Positions 2,034 to 8,851 of a stretch of DNA of 64,000 bases are shown in pieces (position 1 is the first letter of the stretch; every line of letters begins with the position of its first letter). The stretch is taken from the NCBI GenBank assembly GCA_021799595.1, contig JAJZAF010000004.1:1-64000 (forward strand). The letters are read 5' to 3'. The notes under the pieces are model-generated. The model saw nothing but the letters and a program-made list of their open reading frames with translations. It made no database searches and was not told the DNA's origin. A program made the position numbers and the translations under genes. This DNA is from a bacterium (GTDB taxonomy: Bacteria > Patescibacteriota > Saccharimonadia > Saccharimonadales > UBA4665).

Positions 2034-3287
2034 CTAAACCCAGCCTGCTACTGTTTGATACAAAACTACTACAGAAAGCACGCCGACTATAGCTACGCAT
2101 ACGGTGGCAACGGCACGAAAGATCGGCCCATTGGCCGCTTTACCCAGCAAGGATTTTTTATTAGCCAGGACCAAAATATACATGAGCAACAGTGGCGTAA
2201 TAATACCATTTAGCACCTGGGCGTTAACGAGAGTAGAAATTAGGTTGCTCGGTATTAGGGCGATGGTGGCTCCGACCACGATTTGAACTGTAAAAAGTCC
2301 GAGAAAAATGGGGGCTTCAGAGAACTTCTTACTAACACTCCGTTCCGAACCCATCGTTTCACTCACTGCATAAGCCGTCGAGAGTGGCACGACGGCAGCT
2401 GCTAGCGCGCTAGCACCCAATAATCCGATACCGAAGAGTTCGGTAGCCAGCGATCCGGCAACCGGTTTAAGGGCTAATGCTGCCTGACTGGCAGAAGCAA
2501 GCGGTGCTCGATGGGTAATAGCTGCAGCTGTGGCAATAATGATGAAAATACTAATTATGTTAGCGAACACTGTGCCCACGATAGTATCAATCCTCTCCCG
2601 TTTGTACTCGTTTGGTCCAATACCCTTGTCCGGCACTGCGGCTGCAATGTAAAACTGCATATAGGGAGTAATGGTTGTGCCTATTAACGCCACGCTTAAA
2701 AAGAGAAAGCTTTTACTGGTAAGCAGGTGTGGCAAAAGTAAATTACTACTTACAACCCCCCAATGAGGATGCGCTAGAATAGCTGCCACTGGGTAGGTTA
2801 AAAAGGCGAGAGATAAAACCAAAAAAAGTCGTTCTGCCCGACGATAACTACTAAATACCACCAATGCCCAGACCAAGAAGGCAGCGATTGGCACCGATAC
2901 ATAACGGCTAATGTGAAATAACTGCAACGCAGCGGCAATACCGGCAAATTCACTTACGACCAGTCCGCCATTCGCAATAATAAAGGCAATAATGGCTAAC
3001 GTTGTGAAGCGAATTGAGAAGTGTTCACGTATCAGCGACCCTAAACCCTCACCGCTATATGCCCCTAACCGGGCACTCATTTCCTGTACAATGACAAGCG
3101 CAATCGTTACTAACACCATAATAAAGAGCGTGCGGTAGCCAAACTGGGCACCAGCTGAAGCATAGGTTGCTACCCCACCAGCATCGTTGCCGGCATTAGC
3201 TGCAATGAGACCAGGACCAAGTAGCGCAATACCAATTAAAAATTTGGAGCGAGTTCCCTTTAGTTTTTCGAAGATAGCCCTGGTCAT
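2034..3287 (-). CDS. NRAMP-related divalent metal permease, possibly a Mg2+-type (NRMT) member
   Basis: This is a 417-aa protein with about 11 membrane segments and the NRAMP/SLC11 fold signature near its N terminus (ALLGPGLIAANAGNDAGG, residues 21-38). The classical metal-binding DPGN in helix 1 is replaced by DAGG (Asp35 kept). The helix-6 MPHN-type motif is replaced by ITPYMQFY (residues 206-213). Loss of the binding methionine and of these motifs is what is known for NRAMP-related Mg2+ transporters, so Mg2+ is a better guess than Mn2+ or Fe2+. The start overlaps the stop of the upstream MgtE-type sensor gene (ATGA at 3284-3287), so the two are translationally coupled. The family is certain; the substrate is inferred. 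Confidence 0.8.
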   Translation of the reverse strand: MTRAIFEKLKGTRSKFLIGIALLGPGLIAANAGNDAGGVATYASAGAQFGYRTLFIMVLVTIALVIVQEMSARLGAYSGEGLGSLIREHFSIRFTTLAIIAFIIANGGLVVSEFAGIAAALQLFHISRYVSVPIAAFLVWALVVFSSYRRAERLFLVLSLAFLTYPVAAILAHPHWGVVSSNLLLPHLLTSKSFLFLSVALIGTTITPYMQFYIAAAVPDKGIGPNEYKRERIDTIVGTVFANIISIFIIIATAAAITHRAPLASASQAALALKPVAGSLATELFGIGLLGASALAAAVVPLSTAYAVSETMGSERSVSKKFSEAPIFLGLFTVQIVVGATIALIPSNLISTLVNAQVLNGIITPLLLMYILVLANKKSLLGKAANGPIFRAVATVCVAIVGVLSVVVLYQTVAGWV

Positions 3288-4585
3288 GAGAATATCCGCG
3301 GAAAATGAAAGCGACCATCCTCCGGCATGAAGGCATCAATAATATCATCAGCTAGAATACGGCCCAGTGGGTGTCTGTTATTATCGACCACGAGAATAGA
3401 GTACTGCCGGTTGGTAATTAAACAATCGGCTACCGTGTCAAGACTATCTTCAGGATTGACTACCTCTGGTGGTTGTTTATGAACAAGCGACTCAATTTTT
3501 TGATTTGGAGATGCAACGAACAAATCCCCGAAGTTGAGATCATCAACGAATCGCCCTTTGCCATCCACGACCACTACCCCACTGGTTGAGCTTTCGTCCT
3601 TATCTCCGTGACGCAAACGATCAGCAATATCTTTAATTGTTTCATCCTTCGTCGCTATCACCATACCACTGTTCATAATACCCCCAGCGGTTGTTTCCCT
3701 GTGAGCCAGAACAGCTGTCACTCGTTCACTCGCCTTTTTCGGCAAGCGAGCAATCAGTTGATCACGAAACTCGCCATCGATATCTCGTAGAGCATCGGCG
3801 GCTTCATCAGGTTCCATCTTTGCGAGATATGACGCAGCAGCTTCAGGAGTTGATTCTCTTAGCAGCGACTCCAACTCCTCTGCCTGCATTTCTTCCAAAG
3901 CATCAGCAGCTTGTTCAATCGGCAACACCTGCAAAAGTTCCTGACGCTGAGCACGTCCGAGATCTTCAAGCAGATCAGCAAGCTCAGCGGGTTTCAGTCG
4001 CTGTAATTCACGACTCGTAGCACTAAGGCGCAAACTACTTTTGCCATCGCTGGCCTGTCCAAAACTTTGAATAGTGCTCCAATCAATAACTGACCGCGCA
4101 TATGGCCGTTTCCGCCACCGACGCGGCAAAAGACGTCTTAAGAGCGATAGATAACTGACGTCTACTGCTACCAAACGAATGCCACCCGAAACAGTAATGT
4201 ACAGGTCAGCAGCTCGCACGACTCGAGCACCTTCGACATCAACGAGTTGGTGATCAAGTACATCAGTAGCTAAACAAGCTTCACCAGAACGTGGCTGAAA
4301 ATCTCTCAGATCCAGTCGGGCAGTTTTAAGATTAACAGCATCAAATGTTATATGGGCAATCTCATTGGCCGGAATCCAAACTACTCGTCGGCCAACTTTT
4401 ACCAAAATGCCACTGAGTAGCGGATAGCGTTGTTGCTGATCCCAACGACAGACAAGATCAACAAGACGACCAACTTCTTGACCGTCCTTATGTATTACCC
4501 GCGCACCCAATAGACCAGCTACTGATAGCAGTGAGTCAAGTGGGAAAGTGTGGGCACTGCGGATGGAGGGAAAATGACGGAACAT
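3284..4585 (-). CDS. MgtE-type sensor protein: PRC-barrel-like, MgtE N-terminal and CBS-pair domains without the pore
   Basis: The product is 433 aa when started at ATG 4585, which has AAGGAG at 4595-4600 with good spacing; an upstream in-frame ATG at 4624 lacks such a site. PRC-barrel-like regions (about residues 25-75 and 107-155) come first. They are followed by an MgtE N-terminal superhelix rich in acidic repeats (ELADLLEDLGRAQRQELL and related units, about 195-300) and a pair of CBS domains (about 310-430). In MgtE channels these soluble domains sense Mg2+ and gate the pore; here no membrane segment follows. The next overlapping gene is an NRAMP-type permease, so this protein probably regulates that permease. 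It lies behind a long structured leader and a consensus promoter. Confidence 0.8.
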   Translation of the reverse strand: MFRHFPSIRSAHTFPLDSLLSVAGLLGARVIHKDGQEVGRLVDLVCRWDQQQRYPLLSGILVKVGRRVVWIPANEIAHITFDAVNLKTARLDLRDFQPRSGEACLATDVLDHQLVDVEGARVVRAADLYITVSGGIRLVAVDVSYLSLLRRLLPRRWRKRPYARSVIDWSTIQSFGQASDGKSSLRLSATSRELQRLKPAELADLLEDLGRAQRQELLQVLPIEQAADALEEMQAEELESLLRESTPEAAASYLAKMEPDEAADALRDIDGEFRDQLIARLPKKASERVTAVLAHRETTAGGIMNSGMVIATKDETIKDIADRLRHGDKDESSTSGVVVVDGKGRFVDDLNFGDLFVASPNQKIESLVHKQPPEVVNPEDSLDTVADCLITNRQYSILVVDNNRHPLGRILADDIIDAFMPEDGRFHFPRIFS

Positions 4586-4756
4586 AAGTAGTAACTCCTT
4601 AAAACTTATACGGTCAAAAGCCAAGCTGAGACAATACGATCAAACTTGGCTTTTATACCTTGTATTTATTCGTGCGCGCCCACCCGGCGGCGGGTTTATA
4701 ACGAAAGATGTTTGTTTTATCTGTTTGTTAGACGCGCCGCGACTTGCGCACGATCT
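4586..4756 (-). promoter_or_regulatory. Structured 5' leader of the MgtE-type/NRAMP operon (candidate metal-responsive RNA)
   Basis: From the predicted start near 4756 the leader runs about 170 nt to the ATG. It contains a long-range perfect 7-bp pairing (GCGCACG at 4746-4752 with CGTGCGC at 4671-4677). A GC-rich 6-bp hairpin lies inside it (about 4679-4694, four-base loop). The leader ends with a 10-bp stem (4616-4625 with 4645-4654, 19-nt loop) whose 3' arm ends in TTTT just before the ribosome binding site. This arrangement resembles an aptamer plus a terminator or attenuator. I do not recognise the M-box or yybP-ykoY consensus in it. Confidence 0.45.

Positions 4757-5113: not shown

Positions 5114-8851
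<3,738 letters not shown>

Follow-up and report, generated by a model that had tools for sequence, protein, structure and literature searches.

The gene pair

Two genes on the reverse strand of the window, i.e., of the whole 64,000-nucleotide stretch that was analysed, form the operon considered here (Table 1). The first to be read encodes a soluble protein, termed here the sensor, which carries MgtE_N (PF03448, E=7.8e-20) and CBS (E=1.7e-11) domains but not the MgtE membrane domain, PF01769. The second encodes a permease of the NRAMP fold. A first-pass annotation of this DNA had placed both genes at these same positions, had claimed a four-nucleotide overlap between them, which can be read as ATGA, and had described the sensor as MgtE-like but lacking a membrane part, all of which stands. 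Between the pair and ligA lies the gene for a 242-aa membrane protein of unassigned family (5114-5842, reverse strand), kept as well in two other genomes (L010, L011).

Table 1. Positions of the two genes and of their features within the window.
Feature	Position	Strand	Details
NRMT-type NRAMP permease gene	2034..3287	-	417 aa; PF01566 E=2.2e-81
Helix 6 ion-site motif TTITPY, permease residues 204-209	2661..2678	-	TxxT signature; classical AxxMPH
Helix 1 ion-site motif DAGG, permease residues 35-38	3174..3185	-	Classical NRAMP has DPGN
Stop/start overlap of sensor and permease genes (ATGA)	3284..3287	-	4 nt
Soluble sensor gene, PRC-PRC-MgtE_N-CBS-CBS	3284..4585	-	433 aa; start ATG at 4585
CBS pair	3323..3682	-	D414 matches TtMgtE D247 (Mg4), invariant
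MgtE_N domain	3695..3997	-	D260, D264 match TtMgtE D91 (Mg4), D95 (Mg6)
Second PRC-like repeat, ~residues 99-176	4058..4291	-	Motif DHQLVD..GARVVRAADLY; putative second PRC copy
First PRC-barrel-like repeat, ~residues 17-88	4322..4537	-	Homology to relatives matching PF05239; beta-rich in a relative's model
Ribosome-binding site AAGGAG of sensor gene	4595..4600	-	9 nt upstream of ATG 4585; read from sequence

The permease

By its sequence, the permease belongs to the NRMT clade of the NRAMP fold. Its nearest solved structure is EleNRMT (7qia, E=1e-98), with classical NRAMPs matching at 2e-17 or worse (DraNramp at 2e-17), and in a permease tree the window protein and EleNRMT share one 76-row clade (SH-aLRT 95), outside of which are found DraNramp and L025 (support of 100). 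The permease, that is, groups with EleNRMT rather than inside the Mn2+ NRAMPs. The first-pass annotation had proposed as much from motifs, namely DPGN replaced by DAGG, an MPHN-type motif replaced by TPYM, and a fit of these changes to NRAMP-related Mg2+ transporters. The DAGG is as described and TPYM is present as well (residues 207-210), though there it is the register that requires correction, as the classical AxxM-P-H aligns instead with TxxT-P-Y. With ion sites in register (DAGG and TTIT-PY), the permease displays DxxG plus TxxT, which fits the published NRMT signature of DxxG/TxxA-or-T (Ramanadane et al. 2022, PMC8806188); the DPGN and AxxMPH motifs of classical NRAMPs (MntH/DMT) are absent from these aligned sites. 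A trait of the NRMT class, to which the window permease is assigned here from sequence, is Mg2+ transport that is not H+-coupled.

EleNRMT thus shares with the window permease its clade, its fold, and its type of ion site, differing in that the residue following TxxT-P in helix 6 is W in EleNRMT versus Y in the window permease. The work on EleNRMT involved no partner protein, and its published description (PMC8806188) mentions neither 'operon' nor 'CBS', whereas the closest relatives of EleNRMT in the tree (G333, G116, G204, and G128) all have a sensor gene adjacent.

The sensor

The best solved relatives of the sensor are MgtE cytosolic domains. Residues 1-190, however, are not MgtE-like but consist instead of two PRC-barrel-like repeats, a point which the first-pass annotation missed. 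The Pfam PRC model matches the window sensor weakly (E=0.41) but matches five of seven aligned close relatives (best 2.9e-5), and more distant sensor relatives as well, and the predicted structure of a relative's sensor possesses two beta-rich units in this region. PRC barrels are generic docking folds.

Relative to the MgtE channel of Thermus thermophilus (TtMgtE; 2yvy), the window sensor shares the N and CBS domains along with the acidic residues of sites Mg4 and Mg6. It differs in having no pore, an incomplete plug helix, loss of the Mg5 and ATP-site residues, and the added N-terminal PRC pair. The modelled sensor of one relative (L034) superimposes on the Mg2+-bound MgtE cytosolic domain of 2yvy with a TM of 0.78, as does the NRMT half of that model on EleNRMT with a TM of 0.92 (both Foldseek).

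TtMgtE sites were mapped onto a non-redundant set of 53 sensors, almost all of them beside an NRMT, with 230 columns ranked by conservation. The D247 position is invariant (3rd of 230), and D91 and D95 are 91% conserved (10th and 11th), the latter position being 98% acidic; the corresponding Mg4 residues (D260/D414) and Mg6 residue (D264) are present in the window sensor. Poorly conserved are D226, D250, D214, E216, and E59. Mg5 (D226/D250) thus is not found, with the D226 position mostly N and, in the window sensor, R, while the position of the ATP-contacting F227 is mostly Leu and, in the window sensor, Q. As the Mg4/Mg6 residues are conserved and D226, D250, and F227 are not, the sensors can have kept Mg4 and Mg6 but not a TtMgtE-type Mg5 or ATP site; more generally, none of Mg5, Mg7, and the plug helix is intact, each being lost or degraded. 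Some of the TtMgtE residue numbers are from an NMR study (PMC5882242). In NRMT-adjacent sensors the columns equivalent to TtMgtE 62-63, there S-H, hold an acidic pair (LEEM), possibly a site for metal or for contact that is particular to this module.

Conservation of the pair

The annotation's proposal had presumed a pair that would recur in other genomes, and recur it does. Among 380 same-phylum genomes, 31 of 33 sensor places adjoin an NRAMP gene, with the two exceptions being a contig-end fragment and a genome whose NRMT is cut at another contig's end. Counting instead from the permease, 28 of the best 32 NRMT hits in these genomes adjoin a sensor, with one more beside a PRC-only protein, another at the end of a contig, and a final two which resemble another, unpaired NRAMP clade. 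Among the 30 top NRMT hits from Actinomycetota, a sensor or a PRC-only protein is adjacent in 29, the remaining hit lying at a contig end, whereas no sensor adjoins any of 29 Actinomycetota Nramps of less than 200 bits. Across 296 Actinomycetota genomes, just over half of full-length sensors (55/107) adjoin an NRAMP, with the sensor first in 52 of those 55. Within the permease tree, loci labelled 'paired' or 'PRC-only' cluster much more strongly than when the labels are shuffled. As many loci were fetched by their sensor, pairing counts based solely on the tree are biased, and permease-driven counts are used here instead. A single-sequence scan of genome contigs yielded three loci only.

The 'PRC-only' protein is a stand-alone PRC pair, homologous to the sensor's N-terminal part, which is encoded directly after the NRMT gene at 10 distinct loci (L090, L104, L105, L107-L111, L145, and L165). 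It is the neighbour in eight of the best 30 Actinomycetota hits, in three of which a full-length sensor is adjacent too, so that the idea of its always substituting for the sensor was rejected. Indeed, in most genomes with a PRC-only neighbour a complete PRC-MgtE_N-CBS protein is also encoded, whether at that locus or elsewhere.

The module on other membrane proteins

Elsewhere the same module is joined to different membrane proteins. In two Actinomycetota genomes it is part of a 1318-aa natural fusion of PRC-MgtE_N-CBS with a full MgtA-type P-type ATPase (L062:1593-5546 and L063:1281-5234, both reverse strand). The ATPase part scores 1077 bits against TIGR01524 (cut-off of 611) and matches a solved MgtA at 1e-254. 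MgtA is a Mg2+-importing P-type ATPase unrelated to NRMT, and this fusion is absent from the window genome. L077 has the module joined in one protein with an MgtE membrane domain (PF01769, 2.7e-9), and in L069-L071, beside NRMT, the sensor has a membrane tail which is read as a diverged MgtE pore. For long, 600-aa sensors, DUF1003 was considered and rejected as the tail is an MgtE-like membrane part.

Sensors without an NRAMP neighbour adjoin a DUF1003 membrane protein at all 11 loci examined (L064-L068, L072-L076, and L024; Streptomyces-type genomes), which suggests that DUF1003 has to do with Mg2+. Near such loci, CorA is seen by Pfam in L067 and by eye in L073 and L074. Direct sensor-NRAMP fusions were not found among the long frames inspected, with L142-L144, L021, L049, L070, and L081 rejected as either GC-rich frame extensions or missing a second domain.

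These fusions and neighbours indicate that a single cytosolic module has several different partners among unrelated membrane proteins, mostly Mg2+ transporters, i.e., NRMT as separate genes, MgtA and MgtE-type pores as fusions, and DUF1003 as a neighbour. A tentative generalization, quite possible though one toward which we do not yet lean, is that PRC-PRC-MgtE_N-CBS may be a transporter-independent Mg2+ feedback subunit, with the PRC pair docking, MgtE_N-CBS sensing, and the whole reused on all four of these proteins.

The metal

Mg2+ is a likelier permease substrate than Mn2+, given M-box riboswitches at related operons along with the lack of both CorA and an MgtE pore from the window genome. 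Of approximately 30 pair loci tested outside of the window's phylum, 11 distinct ones (L037 and L078 counted as one place) have an M-box Mg2+ riboswitch ahead of either the sensor or the permease; there is none in the window, in its close relatives, or in 20 same-phylum loci tested. By family search of the window genome, which is 0.9 Mb long and 99% complete, CorA is absent, as is PF01769 from the rest of that genome. Found there instead are one CNNM-type protein, one P-type ATPase which falls below both the H+ and Mg2+ cut-offs, and a second NRAMP from another clade (DPSG/TTITPY; L004:3070-4443). After that second NRAMP gene comes one which, by eye, is glutamate-decarboxylase-like (L004:4481-5860).

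Earlier work

The pair is already known, with the window's belonging to the same kind. Shin et al. 2014 (PMC4072509), in those parts of the article drawn on here, report that most NrmT genes adjoin one homologous to the MgtE cytosolic domain, and speculate that this neighbour might serve in feedback regulation or as a chaperone. The window thus has the same two genes, sensor first, as the C. acetobutylicum Ca_c0685 operon and A. capsulatum Acp2976-Acp2977, and the feedback role proposed there is that proposed here. The first-pass annotation's two-component idea therefore is plausible but not new. An M-box is optional among the pairs of Shin et al., some members having one, and the window pair is without. 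Not encountered in those parts of Shin et al. (PMC4072509) are the PRC pair, the PRC-only partner, the MgtA fusion, or the DUF1003 pairing. Among the open-access papers listed, neither PRC-barrels together with MgtE or NRAMP nor a description of an MgtA-sensor fusion was found. The present analysis adds the PRC pair, the PRC-only neighbours, and the finding that MgtA, MgtE-type pores, and DUF1003 proteins share the module; also added are the partner beside EleNRMT relatives, the keeping of the Mg4/Mg6 residues, and the 11 M-box operons.

Explanation and alternatives

We consider it probable that the operon encodes an NRMT-type permease along with its cytosolic Mg2+ feedback subunit. The permease would carry hydrated divalent cations, most likely Mg2+. 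The subunit, which is to say the cytosolic module of MgtE lacking the pore and with a PRC-barrel-like pair in front, would be held by that pair against the permease's cytosolic face, with physical contact presumably serving to inhibit transport. In support are the NRMT assignment, conservation of the pair, the fusions to MgtA and MgtE pores, the M-box loci, the Mg4/Mg6 residues, and the 2yvy-like fold. Weakening it are the loss of Mg5, Mg7, the plug helix, and the ATP site, the lack of an M-box in the window, and a pTM of just 0.50 for a modelled complex.

As stand-ins for that complex, the single in-frame stop between genes was read through for L034 (sensor plus NRMT) and L165 (PRC-only plus NRMT). 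The L034 model (mean pLDDT 80, pTM 0.50; 11 paired rows, without PAE or dimer) has domains which fold well in an arrangement without confidence, hence this read-through model supplies no confident interface for full sensor and NRMT. The L165 model (3 paired rows, also without PAE or dimer) has a pTM of 0.71, slightly above our own rough expectation of 0.62-0.65 should the PRC pair be unplaced, which is at most a hint of its placement.

Weakening too are results from those same parts of Shin et al. (PMC4072509). Co-expression of the A. capsulatum pair, in a single test, gave no gain in Mg2+ rescue, and C. acetobutylicum NRMTs are functional without an MgtE-like partner. Of the annotation's central claim, that the sensor gates the permease, the NRMT grouping and strong pair conservation thus are in its favour but the co-expression result is not. 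In addition, A. capsulatum NrmT, which has an MgtE-like neighbour and no M-box, carried chiefly Mn2+, fully rescuing a Mn2+ defect but a Mg2+ defect only weakly. This preference invites an unlikely alternative, that the same two-part design exists for Mn2+, with the permease mainly importing Mn2+ and the subunit sensing either Mn2+ or, as a proxy, Mg2+. EleNRMT carries Mn2+ too, the window and its close relatives are without an M-box, and helix 6 of the window permease has its Y where EleNRMT has W. The DxxG/TxxT site nevertheless is a Mg2+-type signature, the module is fused to a dedicated Mg2+ pump (MgtA), and M-box riboswitches are present at 11 related operons. Furthermore, a genome without CorA or an MgtE pore needs another Mg2+ importer, though it does have one P-type ATPase whose ion is unclear.

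Less likely still is that the MgtE-like protein helps to assemble, stabilize, or anchor the permease rather than acting as a metal-dependent gate. Such a role would suit PRC barrels as docking folds, some NRMTs do have a PRC-pair neighbour only, with neither MgtE_N nor CBS, and several MgtE Mg2+ sites are lost. Acidic residues of Mg4 and Mg6, however, are among the module's most conserved, and the full sensor is present in most genomes with a PRC-only neighbour. Very improbable is co-regulation without a physical link, that is, a soluble protein serving the cell as a Mg2+ buffer or signal, or instead acting on another transporter. Streptomyces-type genomes encode the same protein with DUF1003 rather than NRAMP adjacent (11/11 loci), and the L034 read-through model, with its 11 paired rows, predicts no confident interface. 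Against this, the module occurs naturally fused to MgtA and to MgtE pores, which shows that it acts in cis on transporters, and its adjacency is near-constant and to NRMT specifically.

EleNRMT is the structural model of Mg2+ transport in the NRAMP fold, and was studied alone, yet its closest relatives carry a probable regulatory subunit. If that subunit gates NRMT, then feedback by one module on Mg2+ import across several unrelated transporter folds becomes directly testable. Handles on the MgtE-like fragment's role would then be the PRC pair, residues D260, D264, and D414, and the MgtA fusion, a positive case provided by nature.

Possible transfer, and plasmids

Within the window's own family the pair is found in just 4 of 36 genomes, at a kept place beside ligA, and both window proteins group among Actinomycetota sequences and away from the majority of the other pairs of their phylum. 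This rarity combined with this grouping suggests acquisition by horizontal transfer. Plasmids carrying the pair are found in Alicyclobacillus, Leifsonia, Mycolicibacterium, and Citrobacter, and a Serratia plasmid (CP068396) carries a sensor relative. In two actinobacterial plasmids with M-box riboswitches, an MgtC/SapB family gene adjoins the sensor-NRMT pair (L022:4771-5553 and L023:7008-7718). On the conjugative IncHI1B plasmid pPSV of Citrobacter freundii (L020), the NRAMP-sensor pair has a heavy-metal ATPase on one side and a Tn3 transposase on the other.
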